Shown in pieces: positions 5,453 through 38,536 of a stretch of 64,000 nucleotides of DNA. The DNA comes from Clostridia bacterium (GTDB lineage: Bacteria; Bacillota; Limnochordia; DTU080; RSA5): assembly GCA_002919235.1 (NCBI GenBank), contig PKEX01000006.1, forward strand, positions 1 to 64,000. Direction: 5' to 3'. The notes beneath the pieces are model-generated. The model was not told where the DNA came from. It saw only the letters and a program-made list of their open reading frames with translations, and ran no database searches. The stretch's first letter is position 1. The number at the start of each line of letters is the position of its first letter. The position numbers and the translations under genes were made by a program.

Positions 5453-6955
5453 TCACCACCCCTGAAGCCCGTGGACGATCTGGCTCAAAGTCTCCAGGTC
5501 CCACGCCGCCGCGGCGGCCAGCCGGACCACGGCCAGCTCGTAGTCGAAGCGGGCCGAGACGGCGGCGGCCACCGCCTGCCAGAGCTGCATCGCGGCCGCG
5601 TCCACCTGGAGGCGGGAGCTCATGCCCAAAGCCGCCTTGGCCTCTTCGGTCTCGAGCTCGAGGTGGGCCAGCAGCGCCCGCTCCGACGCCATGAGGAGCG
5701 CCTCGTAAGCGCTCACCAGCTCCGCATGGCGCCCCTCGACGTCGAGGGCGACGCCGTGCAGCGCTTCATCGAGGCCGAGCTCGGCTTGGCGCAGCAGCTG
5801 TCCGGCGCGGTGAGCGGCCGCCCTGGAGGCGCCACTGTCCCAGAGGTTGTAGGTGACCCGAACCCCGAGGCTCCAGTCGACTTCGTCCTTGGGGGCCTGC
5901 GTCACCGCGGAGAGCTCGGAAGGGATCGCCCGGTCGAACCGCCATCCCGTCACGGACGCCTGGGCCACCCCCTCGTCGTCCACGGTGAGGCTGGCCCTGA
6001 TTTGCCCGGGCCACGTCGCACCGGCGGTAAGCTGGATGTCCGGCCGCCGGTCGAGCTTGACCTTCTCGACGCCGAGGCGGGCCAGGGCCACCGCGGCCCG
6101 GGCGTTCTGCACCTCCGGCCGGTTCGCCTTCGCGCGTTCCACCAGCTCTTCCAGGCTCTCCTGCCAGGGCACCGCCCTTTCCGGCCAAAACGCGGGATGG
6201 CGCCCGGCGATCATCTCCAAGGCTTCCTCCACCTCGATCACGTCGAGGTCGAGGATGTCGACGCCCGCCGGGTCGAGGCCCAGGAGGCGGGCCAGGCGCT
6301 GCCAGGCGATGTCGAGCAGGCGCCGGGAGGCGTCGCGCCTTTGGACCGCTTCCTCGTGGGCAAGGCGCGCTGCGCGCACTTGCGCCTCCGTGTGGGCGCC
6401 CAGGACCGCCTGCTCCTCGGCGGCCTCCAGCGAATCCCGGGTGAGCGCTACGGCTCGCTCGAGGATCCGGTGCCGGATGAGCGCCAGCTCCAGCTGGCGG
6501 TAGGCCTCGTAGGCGGTGACGCCGATCTCTCGCAGCCGGGCCAGGTAGTCGCGCTCGGCCTGCTCGCGCTGGAGGCGTGCCTCCTCCAGGGCCAGGGCGG
6601 TGCTGCCCCGGACAGCCAGGGCTTTGCGGGCGGCGACCGTAGCGGAGAACGTGTTGAGGGGATCGCCGCCCAGCACGGGCGCGAGCTGCTCCGAGCGGGA
6701 AAGCGTGTCGTCGAGGACGGCGTCGAAGCGCCAGCCCAAGAGCATGGACTCCAGGTTGACGCTGGCGGCCAGGGCCGCCTCCAGCTGGGCCCGGGCAATG
6801 GCCGCCTGGGGACTCTCCCGCAGGGCCAGCCCCACGGCCTCCGCGGCCGTGGGGATCTCGACGGGGGCTGCCACGGCCGGCGCCGGGGCGGCGGGGAGGG
6901 GGAGCGCCAAGGCCGCAGCCAGTACCATCAGGAAAAGCGCAGCACGGGTGTTCAC
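5453..6955 (-). CDS. TolC family outer membrane protein (full length, with beta-strand insertions)
   Basis: Signal peptide; two-repeat coiled-coil TolC pattern; beta-like segments LLGWRFDAVLDDTLSRS... and DIQLTAGATW...DWSLGVRVTYNLWDSG. Confidence 0.85.
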   Translation of the reverse strand: MNTRAALFLMVLAAALALPLPAAPAPAVAAPVEIPTAAEAVGLALRESPQAAIARAQLEAALAASVNLESMLLGWRFDAVLDDTLSRSEQLAPVLGGDPLNTFSATVAARKALAVRGSTALALEEARLQREQAERDYLARLREIGVTAYEAYRQLELALIRHRILERAVALTRDSLEAAEEQAVLGAHTEAQVRAARLAHEEAVQRRDASRRLLDIAWQRLARLLGLDPAGVDILDLDVIEVEEALEMIAGRHPAFWPERAVPWQESLEELVERAKANRPEVQNARAAVALARLGVEKVKLDRRPDIQLTAGATWPGQIRASLTVDDEGVAQASVTGWRFDRAIPSELSAVTQAPKDEVDWSLGVRVTYNLWDSGASRAAAHRAGQLLRQAELGLDEALHGVALDVEGRHAELVSAYEALLMASERALLAHLELETEEAKAALGMSSRLQVDAAAMQLWQAVAAAVSARFDYELAVVRLAAAAAWDLETLSQIVHGLQGW

Positions 6956-8019
6956 GGTGTGACTCCGCCTTCGAGCGGCCTCGAGACGGCCCGCTCATAG
7001 CGGGCCCGGGCCAGGTTGTAGTCGTAGATGGCATGGACGTAATCGGTCCGGGCGCTGTTGAGAGCGGCCTGGGCGCCCATCACCTGGACCAGCGGGGCCA
7101 TGTCCACCTCGTACAGGCTCTGGGCGACCCGGAGGTTCTCTTCGGCCTCCTCGACGCTCTTGGCCAGGGCGGAGAGGCGCCGGGCGGCGTCCTGCAGCGC
7201 CAGGTGCGCCTGGCGGATCTCCAGCTGGATGCCGCGCCGCACCTGCTCGAGGCCGTTTTCCGCCTTGGCCAGCGCCACTTTGGCCAGCTCCAGCGCGAGT
7301 TCGGGCGTGTAGTCGTTGTCGAACAGCTCCACCTGCTTGGCTGCGGCTTCGACGGCCAGGCGTGCTTGAAGCACTTCGATCCGGTGCTCCAAGGCGAAGG
7401 CGATGTCCGCGTCCGGCGACGTCTCGTACGGCTCAAAAGCGAACTCCGACGGGAGAGGCGCGATGGGTTCAGCGAAATCGACGCCCAGCACTCGCCGGAA
7501 GTTGAGCAGGGCAATCTCGTACCCGCCCCGGGCCTGCGCCAGGTTGGCTTCGGTCTGGGCTACTTGGCTCGCAGCGCTGAGCACGTCGGCCTGCGTCCCC
7601 GTCCCCCGGGCGAAGCGCTGCTCTGCAATCTCCAGCTGCCTGCGGGAGACGCGCAGCGCCTCTTCCAGCACGGCGACGAGATTTTGGGCGCGGAGGACGG
7701 CGTAGTAGGCCTCTTCCACCTCGAGTTTCAGGTCGAACTGGTCCAAGAGCAGCTGCCGCCGGGCGATTTCCGCCTGGCGCTCTGCTTGGAGGAGCGCCGT
7801 CGGCGACGGCTGGACGAGGTTGTTCGCTCGCGCCTGCTGCAGGTTGAGCTCCGCTTCGAGGACGTTGAGGCGGCTCAAGGCCAGAGAGAGGCTGTTTTCC
7901 CACGCCAATGCCACCGCGTCCTCCAGCGAGACGTAGGCCAGGCCGCCGCCCTCCTGGGCGCGAACCGCCGGTGAGAGCAGCAGCGCCAGGATGAGCCCGG
8001 CGAGAGCGATGCGCTTCAT
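6952..8019 (-). CDS. Short TolC family protein, apparently without beta-barrel segments
   Basis: Signal peptide MKRIALAGLILALLLSPAVRA; TolC-like helices (SLEDAVALAWENSLSLALSRLNVLEAELNLQQARA); beta insertions absent in both repeats. Confidence 0.78.
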   Translation of the reverse strand: MKRIALAGLILALLLSPAVRAQEGGGLAYVSLEDAVALAWENSLSLALSRLNVLEAELNLQQARANNLVQPSPTALLQAERQAEIARRQLLLDQFDLKLEVEEAYYAVLRAQNLVAVLEEALRVSRRQLEIAEQRFARGTGTQADVLSAASQVAQTEANLAQARGGYEIALLNFRRVLGVDFAEPIAPLPSEFAFEPYETSPDADIAFALEHRIEVLQARLAVEAAAKQVELFDNDYTPELALELAKVALAKAENGLEQVRRGIQLEIRQAHLALQDAARRLSALAKSVEEAEENLRVAQSLYEVDMAPLVQVMGAQAALNSARTDYVHAIYDYNLARARYERAVSRPLEGGVTP

Positions 8020-11000
8020 GACGCCATCTCCTTTCCCACGGTCCGGCTGCGGGCCCGGCGGACCCGCCGGAACCATTCCGTCAGGTCGTCCACCGCCAGG
8101 TAGACCGCCGGCACCAGGAGCAGCGTGAGGAGGGTAGAGGTGGACAGGCCCACGCTGACCACCACCGCCAGCGGCGCCTCCAGCTCCGACCCCTCGCCGA
8201 TCCCCAGGGCCAGCGGGAGCATGCCCAGGACGGTGGTGAGGGTCGTCATCAAAATGGGACGCAGGCGGATCTTGCCCGATTCCACCACGGCTTGCAGCCG
8301 GTCCACGCCGCGCCGGCGCGCCTGGTTGATGAAGTCGATGAGCAGGATCGCGTTGTTGACCACGATTCCTACCAGCATGATCACGCCGATGAACGCCACG
8401 ACGCTGAAGGTGTGGCCTGTGAGGTAGAGACCCCAGACCACCCCGATGAGCGCGAACGGGATGCTGCCGATGATCACCAGCGGCTGGGTGAACGACTCGA
8501 ACTGCGACGCGAGCACCGCAAACACCAAGACGATGGACAAGACGAACGCGATCCCCAGGTCGGAGAAGGCCTCCACCATCAGCTCGTCCTCGCCGCCGTA
8601 GGCCACCTCGACGCCCGGCGGAAACTCCATCTGGGCCACCGCGGCCCGGACGTCGTTCATGACGGAGCCGAGAGCCCGCCCGGAAAGCTGGGCCGTGACG
8701 GCCACCACCCGCGACTGGTCCACCCGGTCGATGGAAAGCGGGCTTCGCGCCTCGACCAGCTCCGCCACCTCGGACAGGGGCACGATGCCGAAGGGGGTCC
8801 CGATGGGCAGATTCCTCAGGTCCGACAGGTTCTGCCGGTACGGCTCGGCCAGCCGGACCACCACGTCAAATTCCTCGCCGCCGCTCCGGTAGATGGTGGC
8901 GGCCTGTCCGGCGATGGCCGTGCGCACGGAGGACGCGATCTGGACCACCGAGAGCCCGAGCTGCCCCGCCCGCTCCCGGTCGATGCGGATCTCCAGCTCC
9001 GGCCTGCTCTCGTCGAGGCTGGTCCGCACTTCCCGGGTGCCGGGGATGGTGCGGATCACTTCAGCCAGCCGCGCCGCTTGCTGGGCCAAGACGTCCAGGT
9101 CGTCGCCGCGCACCTGGACCTGCACGGGGGCGGCGCCGCCCACGCCGACGAAGGACATGGTGTGAACCTCGATGTTCGCCCCGGGGATCCCCGCCGCCAG
9201 CCGCCGCACGTCTTCAATGACGTCGGCGGTGGAGCGGCGCCGCTGCCGCAAGGGCTTGAGCTGCACCATGATGGCGCCGCTGTCCGAGGCGCTGGCGTCG
9301 CCTGCCTGCGACAGGATGGACGAGACTTCGGGTATCCGGAGCAGCGCCTCTTCGAGATGCGCCACCAAGTCCTGGGTCTCGGCCAGCTTGGTCCCTTTGG
9401 GCATTTCGACAGAGATCTGAAACTGGCCCTCATCCATGGCGGGCAGGAATTCGGTGCCCAGCTTTGGCCCGATCCAGAGAAGGCTCGCGGCCAGCGCGGC
9501 GGTGAAAGCCAGGAGAGTCCACCCGCGCCGGCGCAGCGTCAGCCGGATCAGCCGGTCGTAGACCGCCAGCACCCGCCCCAAGAGTCCCCCGGCGGGAGCC
9601 GCGGGCCGCTCGGGGCCGGAGGGTGTCCCTGTCCCCGCGGCGGCCAGGGACACCCGTGAGATGCTGCCGTCGTTGGCGAGAAGGCGCGAGGCCAGGAGCG
9701 GCACCACCGTCATCGCCACCGCCAGCGAGGCGGCGAGGCTGTACGTCACCGTGAGGGAGAGATCCGAGAAGATCTGGCTGGCCAGGCCTTCCATGAAAAC
9801 GATGGGGACGAAGACCGCGACGGTGGTCAGGGTGGAGGCAAGGATGGCGCCGGCCACCTCCCGGGCTCCTTCCACCGCGGCCTCGACCGCTTCGGATCCC
9901 AGCTGCCGGTGGCGGAAGATGTTTTCCAGCACCACGATGGAGTTGTCCACCAGCATGCCGACGCCCAGGGCCAGGCCGCCCAGGGACAGCATGTTCAAGG
10001 TCATTCCCGAGAAGTAGACCAAGAGGAACGTAAAGACGATGGAGACGGGAATCGAGATGGCGATGACCAGCGTCGAGCGGAAACTGCGCAGGAACGCGTA
10101 GAGGACCAGCGCGGCCAGGAGGGCGCCCACCGCCGCGTTGGAGGTGACGGCGTCGATGGCCGCTTCGACGAACGCCGATTCGTCGTACACGGCCACGAAC
10201 TCCACGTCGCCCAGCTCGCGCGCGATCTCGTCCAGGACCTCGCGCACCTGGCGCGCGACCTGCACCGAGTTGGCCCCCGTCTCCTTGACGATCTGCAGGT
10301 TGAGAGCGGGCTGCCGGTTGAGCCGGGTGATCTGCCGCTCATCGGATTCCCCCATGGAGACCTCGGCGATCTCCCGCAAGGGGATGGTTCCCGCGGCCGT
10401 GGGAATCCGGACGGCGGCGATGTCGGCCAGGTCGTGAAACTCCCCGGTGGTCCTGAGCGTCAGCTCTTCCCGCCCCGAGACGATGTTTCCGCCGGGCAGG
10501 TTGAGATTGGCCGCCTGCAGCGCCTGCACCACGGTCTCAAAGCTGACGTTGAACGCGCGCATGCGCACCGGGTCCAAGGTCACGTGGACCTGCTGCTCCC
10601 GGCCGCCGAAGACGCTGACGGACGCCACGCCCTCGATCCGCTCCAGGCGGTTCTTCACCACATCTTGCGCGAGAGCGTAGAGCTCGGGCAGGCTGCGGTC
10701 GCCTCCCATGCCCAGCTGCATGATGGGCGATGCGGACGGGTCGAAGCGCAGGATCCGGGGGGATCCCGCCCCGTCGGGAAGCAGCTCCCGGATGAGGTCG
10801 ATCCGCTCCCGCATCTCGAGGGCGGCGAAGTTCATATCGGTGCCCCAGTCAAACTCGACCAGCACCACCGACTGGCCCCGCGTCGAGGTGGAGCTGACGC
10901 CGGTCACGTTGGCCAGCGACGACATGGCCTCTTCGATGGGGCGGGTGACCAGGCTTTCCACTTCCTGGGGTCCGGCCCCCTCGTAGCTGGTGGCCACCGC

Positions 11001-32929: not shown

Positions 32930-33006
32930 GGGCAGATAGCTCAGCTGGTCAGAGCGCTGCGCTCACATCGCAGAGGCCGGGGGTTCGAGTCCCTCTCTGC
33001 CCACCA
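32930..33006 (+). tRNA. tRNA-Val (anticodon CAC), CCA encoded
   Basis: GGGCAGATAGCTCAGCTGGTCAGAGCGCTGCGCTCACATCGCAG...TTCGAGT...TCTGCCCACCA. Confidence 0.95.
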
Positions 33007-33069: not shown

Positions 33070-33099
33070 TTGACGCCGGCGGCGGCCAGCACATACAAT
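33070..33099 (+). promoter_or_regulatory. Promoter of the RND/barrel cluster regulator (TTGACG-N18-TACAAT)
   Basis: Hexamers at 33070-33075 and 33094-33099. Confidence 0.65.
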
Positions 33100-33132
33100 G
33101 GAGTTGGTTGTTGGGTCTTTTGGGAAGAGGAG

Positions 33133-33837
33133 GTGGGGGCGATCCGGCTGACGGAACGCCGCAAGCAGTTCTTGCGGGGCGTGCTGGACTTGTACCGGAG
33201 GACCCAGCTTCCGGTACACTATGAGACCTTGGCCCAGCGTCTGGGCGTCAGCAAGTGGACGGCCTACGACGTGCTGCGGGCCCTGGAGGAGCAGGGTCTC
33301 CTCGCCCGGGACTACACGGTGAACCGCGGCGAGCCGGGTCGTTCCCAGATCGTGTTCGTGCCTACCCCCGCGGCGGAGGCGCTGTTCTCGCAGGTGCGCC
33401 CGGCTTCGGTGGAAGGCGGTGACCTGGTGGCGCTCAAAGCAGAGGCGCTCCGGTCGCTGGCCGAGTGGCGCACCCTCAAGCCCGCGAAGGCCACCCAGCG
33501 CATCATGGCGGCCATAGCCGAAGCCGACGTTCAGGTGAAGTTTTGCACGTACATCATGGCCCTTTTTCTGGTGCACTTGGGCGCCCTCAGCGACAGCGCA
33601 GTCGCCGTCGTCCGCCGGTTGGTGCGGGAGACGCCGGGAGTGGAGATGCCTCTCACGGTGTTCGTCGGCATCGTGCTGGGCATGGCCATCGAAGCCATGG
33701 GCCTCGGGGTGGGAGAGGAGCTGCTGGGGCTCTTGGGCCGGTTTCTGAAGTCCGTCATGGACTTGTCCCAGTCCGAAAAGGAGATGCTGGTCAGCTTCCT
33801 CAACGACGCCCTGGCGGATGAGGCCGCGGCCACGTAG
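33133..33837 (+). CDS. Winged-helix transcriptional regulator with alpha-helical C-terminal domain
   Basis: LTERRKQFLRGVLDLYRRTQLPVHYETLAQRLGVSKWTAYDVLRALEEQGLL HTH. GTG start after GAGGAGG. Confidence 0.75.
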   Translation: MGAIRLTERRKQFLRGVLDLYRRTQLPVHYETLAQRLGVSKWTAYDVLRALEEQGLLARDYTVNRGEPGRSQIVFVPTPAAEALFSQVRPASVEGGDLVALKAEALRSLAEWRTLKPAKATQRIMAAIAEADVQVKFCTYIMALFLVHLGALSDSAVAVVRRLVRETPGVEMPLTVFVGIVLGMAIEAMGLGVGEELLGLLGRFLKSVMDLSQSEKEMLVSFLNDALADEAAAT

Positions 33838-33858
33838 ACTTCCGCTTGTTCGCGGGAA

Positions 33859-33895
33859 ATATTTGGGTCTTCCTTGTTTTCTTGGATATTTGGGT
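33859..33895 (+). repeat. Two direct repeats of ATATTTGGGT (27-bp period)
   Basis: Exact 10-mers at 33859-33868 and 33886-33895 in an AT-rich patch between regulator and RND gene. Confidence 0.85.
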
Positions 33896-33970
33896 GTCGT
33901 GCGGTGCAGCGCCCGCGAGAGGAGCGGGGACGGTGCGCCGCGTCCGAAGCCTTGGAAGGAGCGGCGTGGA

Positions 33971-36271
33971 ATGGGTCTCTTGAGCCGGATGGTGCGGCAG
34001 TACCCGGGTTGGATCGTCGGCGTCACGGCGCTGGTCACGGCCGTGTTCGCCTACGGCGTGCTGCAGCTGGAGATCAGCACCGACGTGCAGAGCTTCTTCG
34101 CCGAGGACGACCCCCGGCTCGCGTCGTTCCGGCGGGCGGGAGACACTTTCGGCAGCTCGCTGTACGTGCTGGCGGTAGTCTCCGCCGACGATGTTTTCTC
34201 GGTGCCGGTGATCCAGGCGCTGGATTCGCTCACGAGGGAGCTGGAGGAGGTTCCCGGGGTGGCCAGCGTCCGCAGCATCACCAACGTGGAGAACGTGCGG
34301 GGAACGCCGTGGGGAATCGAGGTCGCGCCGGTCATGGACGTGCTGCCGGACTCCGACGCGGCGGCCGCCCGCTTTCGGGAGCGGGTCTTGAGCAGCGAGA
34401 ACGTAGCGGACCGGCTTGTCTCGGAAGACCAGCAGCACACGCTGATTTTGATCCAGATGGCCGCCAGCGAAAACAACGACCCCGTGGTGCTGGCCATTCG
34501 CGACGTGGTAGACCGGTACGCGGACCGGCTCACGGTGCGCTTGACGGGCCACGCCGCGCTGACGCAGGAGCTGAACCACTTGCTCCGGGCCGACATCGTC
34601 CGGCTGATGCCGCCCGTGCTGGCCGTCATCGTCGCCGTCCTGTACTTCAGCTTCCGGACGGCTTCGGGTGTCCTCCTGCCCTTGGCCAGCGTCGGGATCA
34701 GCGTCATCTGGACGCTGGGGCTCATGGGTTTTCTCGGCGTCTCCTTGAGCCAGCTGGGCTCCGCCATCCCGGTGGTCCTCACCAGTCTCGGCAGCGCCTA
34801 CGGCATCCACGTCCTGCGCCGCTATGAAGAGGAATGGCGCAAGGCGCAGGACAGCCGGGAGGCCGCCGAGCAGACGGTCCGCTCCGTGGGGCTCGCAGTG
34901 GTGATGTCCGGGCTGACCACGGTGGTGGGATTCGTCGCCAACGCCTTCACCTCCATCGTCCGCATCCGGGAGTTCGGCCTCTTCATGGGGGTAGGCGTCG
35001 CCGTCGCGCTGCTGGTGGCGGTGCTGTTCATCCCCGCCGTGCTGGTGCTGGCCCGCGGCGGAAAGCGGGCGCGGCCTTTGGCGCCGGCGCCGGTCAGCGG
35101 TGTCGCGGGAGCCCGCAGCGGTCTCTTGGAGCGTCTGGGCGCCGCCGTGACCCGCCGGGCGGCGGTGCCGCTGGCCGCCGCCGCGGCGCTGGTCCTCCTT
35201 TCCTTCACCGGCTTTGCCCGGCTGGAGGTGGACACCGACTACCTGCGCTTCTTTGACGCGAGGAGCGAGACCCGCCAGGCCTACGAGCTGGTGCAGGAGA
35301 AGTTCGGCGGCGTCGACACCATCCAGATCATCCTGGAGGGCGACGTGCTGGAGCCGGAGACCCTCCGCGCCATGGAGGCGCTCCAGGCGGAGCTGGACGG
35401 GATGCCGCGCGTCAGCGGTTCCATGTCGGTGGCCGACATCGTGAAAGAGGTGGGCCGGGCGCTCAACGAAGACGACCCCGCCTACGCGGTGATCCCGGAA
35501 TCGCGGGCGGCGGTGGCGCAGTACCTCTTGCTGCTCTCCATGTCCGGCGACGCGGTGCTGGACCAGTTTCTCACCTGGGACCAGGGTACCGCCAAGATCG
35601 AGGTGCCCGTGGCCACCACGTCCGCGCAGGAACGCGCCGAGGTGCTGCGGCGCGTCGAAGCGCTGGCCGCCGAGAGGCTGGGTCCTTACGGGCGGGTGGA
35701 GGTGACCGGCCTGCCGTACCTCATCGACGGCATGGCGGAGCTGATCACCGGCGGCCAGATCCAGAGCCTCCTCGTTTCGCTCGCCGGCGTGCTGGTGCTC
35801 CTTTGGATTATGGTGGGCTCCCTCGGGACCGGACTCCTCTGCCTCGTCCCGATCCTGGTTACCGTCGCGATCAACTTCGGATTCATGGGCTGGGCCGGCA
35901 TGACCTTTGACGTCATCACCGCGTTGGTGGCCAGCATCGTGGTGGGGGTCGGCATCGACTACAGCATCCACGTCTACAGCCGCTGGCGCGAGGAAGTGTC
36001 CAACGGGCACGGGCCGAGGGAGGCGGCCGTCGCCACCCTGGCCACGACGGGAAAGGCGGTGCTCTTGAACGCGGCGGCGGTCGCCGCCGGGTTCCTGGTC
36101 CTGCTCCTGTCGACGTTCCCGCCCCTCAGGACCTTCGGTTTCCTCGTGGCGTTCACCATGGGCGTCTCGTCGGCCGCAGCGCTGACGGTGCTGCCGGCCC
36201 TCCTGTCGGTGGCGGCCAGCGTCCGCCGGGCGCGGCGCGCCCGGGTGGCCGGCGTCTCGAAGGCGGGATGA
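33971..36271 (+). CDS. RND/MMPL family transporter (HAE3/hopanoid-transporter-like)
   Basis: Twofold repeated 6-TM layout; FFAEDDPRLASF; PVVLTSLGSAYGIHVLRRYEEE; VVGVGIDYSIHVYSRWREE. Confidence 0.9.
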   Translation: MGLLSRMVRQYPGWIVGVTALVTAVFAYGVLQLEISTDVQSFFAEDDPRLASFRRAGDTFGSSLYVLAVVSADDVFSVPVIQALDSLTRELEEVPGVASVRSITNVENVRGTPWGIEVAPVMDVLPDSDAAAARFRERVLSSENVADRLVSEDQQHTLILIQMAASENNDPVVLAIRDVVDRYADRLTVRLTGHAALTQELNHLLRADIVRLMPPVLAVIVAVLYFSFRTASGVLLPLASVGISVIWTLGLMGFLGVSLSQLGSAIPVVLTSLGSAYGIHVLRRYEEEWRKAQDSREAAEQTVRSVGLAVVMSGLTTVVGFVANAFTSIVRIREFGLFMGVGVAVALLVAVLFIPAVLVLARGGKRARPLAPAPVSGVAGARSGLLERLGAAVTRRAAVPLAAAAALVLLSFTGFARLEVDTDYLRFFDARSETRQAYELVQEKFGGVDTIQIILEGDVLEPETLRAMEALQAELDGMPRVSGSMSVADIVKEVGRALNEDDPAYAVIPESRAAVAQYLLLLSMSGDAVLDQFLTWDQGTAKIEVPVATTSAQERAEVLRRVEALAAERLGPYGRVEVTGLPYLIDGMAELITGGQIQSLLVSLAGVLVLLWIMVGSLGTGLLCLVPILVTVAINFGFMGWAGMTFDVITALVASIVVGVGIDYSIHVYSRWREEVSNGHGPREAAVATLATTGKAVLLNAAAVAAGFLVLLLSTFPPLRTFGFLVAFTMGVSSAAALTVLPALLSVAASVRRARRARVAGVSKAG

Positions 36272-36330
36272 GGGAAGGAGCGGCTCTCAACGTGTGGAGT
36301 TGCGAATCATCGCGGAGAGGTGATGAACGG

Positions 36331-37146
36331 GTGGCAGCAGAGAGAATGACTAGGCGGCGCGGCGGCCTTTTGGCCGCGGGGGTCCTGGCCGCAGTCGCGG
36401 TGCTGGTCCTGGCCGTGGCCCCCGGCGTCCGGGCGGCCGGCGAACTGACCGCGGAGGAGATCTTGGATGAGCTGGAGGGTACGGCGTTCGTCGGCAGCGG
36501 GCGAGCCACCGTCGAGCTGGTGACGGTGAATGCCCGGGGACAGGAGCGTTCGAACCGGCTGGTCTTCTACCGGAAGGAGACGGCTCACGGCGCCAACCAG
36601 CTCTTGGAATACCTGGCTCCCGCGGACGTGGCCGGGACCAAGTTCTTGACGGTGGACGACGAGAGCGGCGAGACGCTGATGTGGCTGTACTTGCCGGCCC
36701 TGGGCCGCGAGCGGCGCATCGCGGGCAGCGCAGCCCAGGACAGCTTTATGGGCACCGACTTCACCTTTGAGGAGATCGGGAGCCTCGGTACGTTCAGCAA
36801 GGACTACGACGCGGAGCGCCTGGCGGACGAGGTCTACCAAGGTGTTGACAGCTATGTCCTGCGGCTGGTCCCCCGGGAGGCGGGCGGCAAATACAGCGCC
36901 GTCACCCTCTGGGTGGCAAAAGAGAGCTTCGTTCCCTTGCGGGTCGAGTTCTATAACCGCCAGGGCAGCCTGGAAAAGGTTTTGATCAACGAGGACCTGC
37001 GGCAGACGGCTCAGGGCCGCTGGCAGCCTCACCTCATCACCATGCGCAACGAGAGCACCGGCAGCCGGACGGTCATCCGGGTGCTCGAAACCAGCGACGA
37101 GCCGGTCCCTGACGAATACTTCACCCTTCGCTACTTGCGGCGGTAG
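36331..37146 (+). CDS. Outer membrane lipoprotein-sorting (LolA-like) family protein
   Basis: Signal peptide; SNRLVFYRKETAHGANQLLEYLAPADVAGTKFLTVDDESGETLMWLYLPALGRERRIAGSAAQDSFMGTDFTFEEIG. Confidence 0.82.
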   Translation: MAAERMTRRRGGLLAAGVLAAVAVLVLAVAPGVRAAGELTAEEILDELEGTAFVGSGRATVELVTVNARGQERSNRLVFYRKETAHGANQLLEYLAPADVAGTKFLTVDDESGETLMWLYLPALGRERRIAGSAAQDSFMGTDFTFEEIGSLGTFSKDYDAERLADEVYQGVDSYVLRLVPREAGGKYSAVTLWVAKESFVPLRVEFYNRQGSLEKVLINEDLRQTAQGRWQPHLITMRNESTGSRTVIRVLETSDEPVPDEYFTLRYLRR

Positions 37147-37172
37147 CGGAAGACGGCGGCATTGAGGAGGGA

Positions 37173-38477
37173 ATGACGGTGCGGGCGGTGCGCAGTGGGC
37201 GCTGGTTCGCCTGGGCGGTTCTCATAGCGTTCTTCACGGCGTTCGGGCCGGCGGCGGCCGCGGCAGAGACAGAGGTCCGGGGCACCGTGGCCTACCGGCT
37301 GGGATACGGGTACGACGCAGAAGAACTGGTGGAAAACTCCCTTAGCCTCGACTTGTCCGTCCAGCGGCGGCTGGGTTTCTCAGGCAAACTGTACGTAGGC
37401 TTCGAGGGGCGCATCCCGTTTACGGACGAAGAGGCCGAGCTGAACGTGGGCGAGGCGTACGCCGACCTCTACGTGGGTGCGACGGACTGGCGCATCGGCC
37501 GCCAGGTCATCAGCTGGGGGACGGCCGACGGGTTCAATCCCACCAACGTGATCAACCCCCGGGGGACGCTGACACCCGCCGCGCTCACTCTGGCCGGCGG
37601 GGCTCTGGACGGGGAGCCGGTCCTGGCCCTGCAGGCCTCGTACTACCTGGCCTCGGGCGGCAGCCTCACCGCCGTCGCGGTGGGGGAGTTCGTCCCCGCT
37701 GAGGGTGCAGACGAGATGCTGGCGGCGGCGGCCGGAAGGCTCAGCGCCGGGCTCGGCGGTCTGCCCGTGGAGGTGGCGGGCCCCGACCCGGTGCCGGCCG
37801 ACGGCTCCCAGGTGGAGTGGGCCGTGCGGGCCGAAGGGCTCCTGGGCAACCACAACGTGTACGTCTCGTACTTTCGCGGCTGGGACGACTACCCGGCGGC
37901 CTGGCTGGAATGGGGGCCCCACCCGCTGGATCCCGCGGGCTTTGTGCCCTCGAAGATCGCGGCCTCTTACCGCCGGGTCCACAAGTTCGGCGTGGCCACC
38001 GCGGGCACACTGAAGGACGCGGGCGTCTGGACGGAGCTCTCCTACACGGTCTTTGATGAACTTGAGGAGCTCGACGGCGCCGGCGCCCTCTCGTCCAACG
38101 CCGGGTATGCAGAACTGGTGGCAGGCGCCGACTACACCTTCGCCAACGGGCTGATGCTCTCGGGGCAAGTGATCTACTCCGGCGGCGGCTCGCTGCTCAG
38201 CCCGTACAAGGATCCTTTCGGCGACGTCGAACCGCAGACCTATTTCGCCGGCATCGCCCGGTATTCGCCCGAACCGGGACACGACTTCGAGGGCATCCTG
38301 CTGGCCAATGCCGGGGACGGCGGCGTCATCGCCGCGGGCCGTTATACGTACGACATCCGGCAGGCGGCCAAGCTCATCCTGGGGATCTCCCGGGTGTTCA
38401 GCGGGGCCGGTTCCGAGTTTCACCCGCTGAAGTCCATGGCCAACCTGATCTCGGCCGGCGTTGAACTCCATTTTTGA
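37173..38477 (+). CDS. Predicted outer-membrane beta-barrel protein (DUF1302-like)
   Basis: Signal peptide, alternating amphipathic strands, RIGRQVISWGTADGFNPTNVINPR, C-terminal strand LISAGVELHF ending in Phe. Confidence 0.75.
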   Translation: MTVRAVRSGRWFAWAVLIAFFTAFGPAAAAAETEVRGTVAYRLGYGYDAEELVENSLSLDLSVQRRLGFSGKLYVGFEGRIPFTDEEAELNVGEAYADLYVGATDWRIGRQVISWGTADGFNPTNVINPRGTLTPAALTLAGGALDGEPVLALQASYYLASGGSLTAVAVGEFVPAEGADEMLAAAAGRLSAGLGGLPVEVAGPDPVPADGSQVEWAVRAEGLLGNHNVYVSYFRGWDDYPAAWLEWGPHPLDPAGFVPSKIAASYRRVHKFGVATAGTLKDAGVWTELSYTVFDELEELDGAGALSSNAGYAELVAGADYTFANGLMLSGQVIYSGGGSLLSPYKDPFGDVEPQTYFAGIARYSPEPGHDFEGILLANAGDGGVIAAGRYTYDIRQAAKLILGISRVFSGAGSEFHPLKSMANLISAGVELHF

Positions 38478-38502
38478 CGTCGCGAGGTCTCAGAGCGGAA
38501 AG

Positions 38503-38536
38503 GCCCTCCCGGAGCCCGGGAGGGCTCTTCATTTTC
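38503..38536 (+). terminator. Terminator of the RND/LolA-like/barrel operon
   Basis: GCCCTCCCGG...CCGGGAGGGC followed by TCTTCATTTT. Confidence 0.7.

Follow-up and report, generated by a model that had tools for sequence, protein, structure and literature searches.

This analysis concerns a four-gene operon in a 64,000-nucleotide stretch of DNA from a Clostridia bacterium (Bacillota, Limnochordia; assembly GCA_002919235.1, contig PKEX01000006.1, positions 1 to 64,000), to which we refer as the window. The genes lie on the plus strand between 33133 and 38477 and encode a regulator, a HAE3-type transporter of the resistance-nodulation-division (RND)/MMPL kind, a LolA-like carrier and an outer-membrane beta-barrel (Table 1). 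They form a stand-alone cassette and lie where a preliminary description, made from the letters alone, had placed a four-gene operon; the promoter and the terminator that it had named were also found, as a promoter-like site and a terminator-like hairpin. The source genome measures 2.24 Mb and is 99.45% complete, and what we report of its gene content is based on family searches. Those of its close relatives that have names, ZCTH02-B6 and ZC4RG06 among them, are metagenome genomes of Bacillota; the same operon also occurs in one Limnochordaceae genome.

Table 1. Coordinates of the operon features in the window and of two related cassettes elsewhere in the same genome.
Feature	Position	Strand	Basis or remark
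tRNA-Val gene	32930-33006		operon starts just downstream
Operon promoter, TTGACG-18-TACAAT	33070-33099	+	consensus scan 10/12; conserved in five genomes
Operator-like element 1, TTGGGTCTTTTGGG, in the regulator leader	33111-33124	+	TTGGG..TTTTG invariant in five genomes
Winged-helix regulator	33133-33837	+	several helix-turn-helix families just under cut-off; start codon uncertain
Operator-like element 2, two ATATTTGGG direct repeats around GTCTTCCTTGTTTTCTTGG	33859-33894	+	conserved in five genomes
HAE3-type RND/MMPL transporter, 766 aa	33971-36271	+	TIGR00921, PF03176
Periplasmic LolA-like carrier with signal peptide, 271 aa	36331-37146	+	PF17131
Outer-membrane beta-barrel, DUF1302 superfamily, 434 aa, C-terminal Phe	37173-38477	+	AlphaFold2, Foldseek, relatives
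Intrinsic terminator-like hairpin, operon end	38502-38526	+	11-bp stem, then T-rich tail
Cassette ABC, FtsX, FtsX, LolA_like, DUF1302-like barrel	L121:2837-8865, contig C28 (locus coordinates)		Pfam: ABC, FtsX, LolA
Cassette FtsX, LolA_like, FtsX, ABC, weaker barrel candidate of different sequence	L120:2016-7544, contig C14	-	Pfam: ABC, FtsX, LolA

The pump matched TIGR00921 (HAE3) over its full length (residues 11-746; 388.5 bits, cut-off 351.9) and PF03176 with 220 bits, and a simple hydropathy scan gave 11 hydrophobic peaks, where the family has twelve transmembrane helices and two large periplasmic loops. Asp663, in transmembrane segment 10 (TM10), is invariant in 53/53 pumps, and His280 and His667 are nearly so. 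The carrier scored 178.7 bits against PF17131 (LolA_like; gathering score 30) and matched solved structures of the LolA superfamily at E ~1e-30 (3bk5 and 9tp6; also 4z48 and 3buu), which bears out the LolA-like fold proposed for it; its residues 12-30 form a hydrophobic, signal-peptide-like segment.

The last gene had been predicted to encode a barrel ending in Phe. An AlphaFold2 model of its product, built with 50 sequences, showed a porin-type beta-barrel of about 20 strands (predicted local distance difference test, pLDDT, 91.4; predicted template-modelling score, pTM, 0.85). Foldseek placed general porins and the alginate exporter AlgE nearest among solved folds, a general similarity only, and we found no specific structural relative. 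Twenty-eight aligned barrel proteins, including that of the window, have in common a D..GRQ.I.WGTADGFNPT motif and an invariant C-terminal Phe (Phe434). The proposed membership in DUF1302 (PF06980) is right at the superfamily level because relatives match the family (28/50 at E <= 0.01, best E 1.7e-15) and the distant barrels associated with the same genes in other phyla score over its cut-off, whereas the window protein itself, at 18.6 bits, stays under the cut-off of 23.2.

The pump, carrier and barrel genes (the trio), each identified on separate evidence, belong together well beyond the window. The barrel is present in 37 of 61 genomes (60 relatives and the source genome), and in the DNA around these hits LolA and HAE3 adjoin it wherever the contig permits, with few exceptions; the order HAE3-LolA-barrel is kept in 21/21 larger neighbourhoods, that of the window included. 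Searched with the barrel motif, 85,488 species genomes yielded 62 loci, some in genomes that also belong to the relatives' sample. Eight of the 62 end at contig edges, which left 54 for the linkage counts, and all three genes were within the fetched stretch in 52. Among these 52, the trio reads HAE3-LolA-barrel on one strand in 47, has the reverse order in 2, and has HAE3 on the opposite strand in 3. Since the loci were selected by the barrel only, the linkage is not circular. The trio occurs in Bacillota (including Halanaerobiales and Limnochordaceae), Aerophobota, Spirochaetota, WOR-3, Fermentibacterota, Bacteroidota, Myxococcota and Desulfobacterota, and is thus not unique to Bacillota. Apart from the trio and a regulator, nothing in the flanking genes is consistent, and shared flanks are found mainly within one family. 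The preliminary description had suggested a trans-envelope system of inner-membrane pump, periplasmic carrier and outer-membrane acceptor; as an architecture this is well supported by the barrel model, the LolA fold and the co-occurrence of the genes, the three tests set in advance, none of which refuted it.

On balance we lean towards a regulated route by which pump, carrier and barrel export a hydrophobe across both membranes. The proton-driven HAE3 pump would extract, in the manner of MmpL and HpnN proteins, a hydrophobic or amphiphilic molecule from the inner membrane or from that membrane's outer leaflet, and pass it to the LolA-like protein, which would shield the cargo in its cavity and carry it across the periplasm. 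There the carrier would dock at the DUF1302-type barrel, a contact that we infer, and the barrel would release the cargo to the outside or laterally into the outer membrane. Until an inducer is present, the regulator would repress its own promoter and the pump genes by way of TTGGGTCTT repeats. The direction of transport, the hand-over, the energy coupling and the repression are all putative in this scheme. Most likely the cargo is not bulk membrane lipid but a hydrophobe that is toxic or surface-active. Inducible export is favoured because TetR or winged-helix regulators adjoin the trio and because of the phenotype of AmeABCD, described below.

The closest described system is AmeABCD of Castellaniella defragrans, whose deletion lowered monoterpene tolerance and raised the net influx of Nile Red (PMC6394551). 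There too an HAE3 RND pump, a LolA-superfamily periplasmic protein and a DUF1302 outer-membrane protein are encoded together. However, the Ame carrier is of the DUF1329 family and that of the window of PF17131, the Ame genes are listed from barrel to pump while the window order is pump to barrel, and Ame includes a YCF48-like protein, AmeC. No additional gene that could be an AmeC-type fourth gene lies within 33971-38477; the operon, with three transport genes, its own regulator and a barrel under the DUF1302 cut-off, is therefore not classed as AmeABCD proper, although by analogy it may work like it. DUF1302, DUF1329 and an efflux pair of Pseudomonas putida have a Tween-20 phenotype in common, and an interaction between them is predicted (PMC10866462).

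A second parallel is TOL_3187/TOL_3188 of the Gammaproteobacterium Thalassolituus oleivorans, where, by description, one protein combines MMPL and LolA-like domains and a porin-like gene follows (PMC6304351). This pair is induced by long-chain alkanes and was read by its authors as alkane transport: both genes rise strongly on C28 alkane, and alkane entry was proposed. Applied to the window, this would make the trio an uptake system in which the barrel admits a hydrophobe and the carrier passes it inward. We find this scarcely credible, for HAE3/MmpL pumps of known function are exporters, the invariant Asp of TM10 fits a proton-driven RND pump, and the ameABCD deletion behaves as a loss of efflux.

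Both among solved folds and in sequence, the pump is closest to the hopanoid transporter HpnN and to MmpL3/4/5. HpnN functions without a co-encoded carrier or barrel (PMC6394551), while MmpL4/5 use the adaptor MmpS. In agreement with the preliminary description, no adaptor gene (membrane fusion protein, MFP) accompanies the transporter; neither an adaptor nor a TolC-type/OEP gene is among the four genes of the operon, which rules out a simple HAE1-TolC pump (RND-MFP-TolC) such as the HAE1 tripartite systems. TolC-type proteins are encoded elsewhere in the genome. On the minus strand of the window, at 5510-10145, OEP/TolC-type genes stand beside a 1041-residue RND frame and make up a conventional tripartite pump locus. 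In another part of the genome (C6:104345-104890), two TGA stops interrupt the frame of an MMPL-type match, which may reflect an RND gene that has decayed or shifted frame, or else a frame that arose by chance.

The DNA around the regulator gene carries conserved operator-like elements. In an alignment of the window with four relatives, ATACAAT of the promoter is invariant, the -35 hexamer is largely kept, and TTGGG..TTTTG is conserved just 3' of the promoter; TTGGGTCTTTTGGG has a single exact match in the window. The two direct repeats noticed earlier proved to be ATATTTGGG, beginning at 33859 and 33886 (a spacing of 27 bp), and to be part of an element conserved in the five genomes, ATATTTGGGTCTT..GTTTT.TGGATATTTGGG, between the regulator and HAE3 genes. 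A search pattern derived from this conserved five-genome element matched once in the window and never in shuffled sequences, with 0 matches expected by chance. A TTGGGTCTT repeat footprint is common to the sites upstream of the regulator and upstream of the pump gene in the five genomes, which suggests that a single regulator binds both. Since both elements lie inside the predicted transcript, they may instead act at the RNA level.

As for the regulator, the gene is present, and several helix-turn-helix families score just below threshold, in line with the winged-helix protein described before; a clear ATG start, on the other hand, is absent, and we found no solved structural relative. Translation could begin at GTG 33133 or at an ATC aligned with ATG or ACG in relatives. 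At this start (33130-33145 in the window; L038 and L039 among the relatives), one relative has ATG, two others have ACG and the window has ATC, and a good Shine-Dalgarno sequence precedes the codon. Such a rare start codon could possibly keep the repressor low. The winged-helix regulator precedes the trio in the window and its closest relatives, and TetR replaces it elsewhere: TetR is directly upstream in 26 trio loci and the window-type regulator in 3 more.

Four observations weigh against regulated hydrophobe export as we picture it. Twenty trio loci with sufficient upstream sequence carry neither TetR nor the window-type regulator. No substrate gene cluster was found travelling with the trio in the neighbourhoods examined. 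The barrel has no specific structural match, its best TM-score being ~0.54 (AlgE). Finally, MmpL3-type proton relays have an acidic residue in TM4, which most of the 53 pumps lack, so that the energy coupling may differ; given the invariant Asp of TM10, a one-sided proton coupling is likely from the aligned pumps.

The carrier and the barrel go with an outer membrane. In a sample of 150 Bacillota genomes, strong LolA_like hits (at least 70 bits) were present in 27/37 Omp85-positive and 0/113 Omp85-negative genomes (Fisher 8e-22), and all 25 genomes with barrel hits were Omp85-positive (25/25). The source genome contains Omp85, OEP and TamB, which rules out a monoderm context. In the same genome we found no match to canonical LolA (PF03548) or MlaD, and none to LptD with a model insensitive to divergent LptD; the last absence is weak evidence because the model detects just 2/14 controls.

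The main rival of hydrophobe export is that the trio takes part in normal outer-membrane building by delivering a structural envelope lipid (phospholipid, hopanoid-like lipid or glycolipid) from the inner membrane to the outer one. The nearest solved pump folds, MmpL3/4/5 and HpnN, are exporters of lipids or lipid-like molecules; Omp85 and TamB occur here without a match to canonical LolA, LptD or MlaD; and in the diderm Firmicute Veillonella, lipid-trafficking systems yet to be discovered have been postulated (PMC10665443). Yet the barrel is absent from 24/61 genomes within the family, order and class of the window's organism, 10/37 Omp85-positive genomes have no strong LolA_like hit, the operon's own regulator, often TetR, suggests inducible use, TamB is available as a candidate bulk lipid route, and the missing LptD counts for little given the 2/14 controls. 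We therefore regard structural lipid transport as doubtful.

A different cargo is suggested by Porphyromonas gingivalis, in which an operon of TetR, MMPL, LolA-like and hypothetical genes (PG1175-PG1181 region) is strongly induced by hemin limitation, among the genes most affected (PMC10434189, PMC10470040). By description it resembles the window operon in the co-regulation of a regulator, an MMPL pump and a LolA-like protein, and differs in having TetR in place of the winged-helix regulator and ABC ATPase genes in its stretch. Together with the best structural matches, MmpL4/5, which export siderophores, it raises the prospect that the exported molecule is an amphiphile connected with metals or heme, for instance a porphyrin or a siderophore-like compound. 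We judge this unlikely: no iron-uptake or siderophore genes were recognised alongside the trio in the neighbourhoods read, and the Porphyromonas operon is likened by description, its hypothetical protein not being equated with the barrel.

In 11 Bacillota loci of one lineage (L076, L077, L079, L082, L086-L088, L090-L092 and L098), the HAE3 frame runs stop-free into LolA, the layout described for Thalassolituus. A clean HAE3-LolA fusion protein is nevertheless weakened as an explanation, as all 10 junctions that were read (10/10) have a purine-rich GAAAGGGG-like, Shine-Dalgarno-like stretch and a start codon, followed by an intact signal-peptide-like segment. Because the junctions retain these signals, the in-frame genes probably also give a free carrier besides the pump-carrier fusion; in the fusion, the signal segment could possibly serve as a thirteenth membrane helix. 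A model of one such protein from a relative (pLDDT 92.8, pTM 0.77, junction low) had MmpL4/5/3 and HpnN as nearest folds. Since Thalassolituus also has an MMPL-LolA protein beside its porin-like gene (PMC6304351), the coupling of pump and carrier appears to have arisen more than once.

Many loci in the phylum sample contain LolA_like and a barrel without HAE3, and there ABC ATPase and FtsX/MacB permease genes precede the pair instead. The source genome has one RND version and two ABC versions of the carrier-barrel cassette (Table 1), and that on contig C28 is an ATP-driven counterpart of the window operon. A limited literature search on PF17131 or on the combination FtsX-LolA-DUF1302 returned nothing relevant. 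In a tree of 72 LolA domains (a quick tree with several long branches), RND-linked and ABC-linked carriers lie on opposite sides of one branch (1 change against a shuffled mean of 13.9; support 82). Free swapping of the engine is unsupported by this split, which indicates two paralogous carrier lines without free exchange.

The ABC versions call to mind LolCDE-LolA-LolB, in which an energised inner-membrane extractor, a LolA-fold carrier and an outer-membrane acceptor act together; its engine, however, is of the ABC/FtsX type and its acceptor a lipoprotein, where the window has an RND pump and a barrel in a genome without a canonical LolA (PF03548) match. Specialised lipoprotein sorting, with HAE3 in place of LolCDE and the barrel in place of LolB, would accord with the annotation of LolA_like as a lipoprotein-sorting protein, with the lack of a canonical LolA hit in the genome and with the FtsX/MacB permeases of the paralogous cassettes, which are of the LolC/E family. 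We nonetheless hold it to be very improbable, as not even all Omp85-positive genomes have the trio, lipoprotein extraction is not known for RND pumps, and the sole genetic data on a relative, those on ameABCD, concern small hydrophobes.

A system of pump, carrier and barrel is, then, a kind already known from AmeABCD, the Thalassolituus fusion and the Porphyromonas operon, of which the window holds a minimal variant; the additions are this minimal Bacillota form, its spread, its ABC twin and the operator-like DNA. With more doubt than confidence, we venture a wider reading, in which a LolA-like carrier and a DUF1302-type barrel would be an ancient, general trans-envelope bridge for hydrophobes across diderm phyla, driven either by a proton-driven HAE3 pump or by ATP-driven, LolCDE-type FtsX/MacB permeases. 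Where diderm Bacillota have no recognisable Lol or Mla proteins, the paralogous cassettes, three in this genome, might be the unfound routes of lipid or lipoprotein export.

The passage of lipids and other hydrophobes through the aqueous periplasm poses a major open question, especially in diderms without the machines of Escherichia coli. A compact cassette that occurs across phyla in proton- and ATP-driven forms offers an alternative to protein bridges and tube-like pumps that can be tested, and gives PF17131 and DUF1302, two large unnamed families, a concrete common role. Diderm Bacillota such as Limnochordia and Halanaerobiales are a place to seek the missing routes of lipid export.

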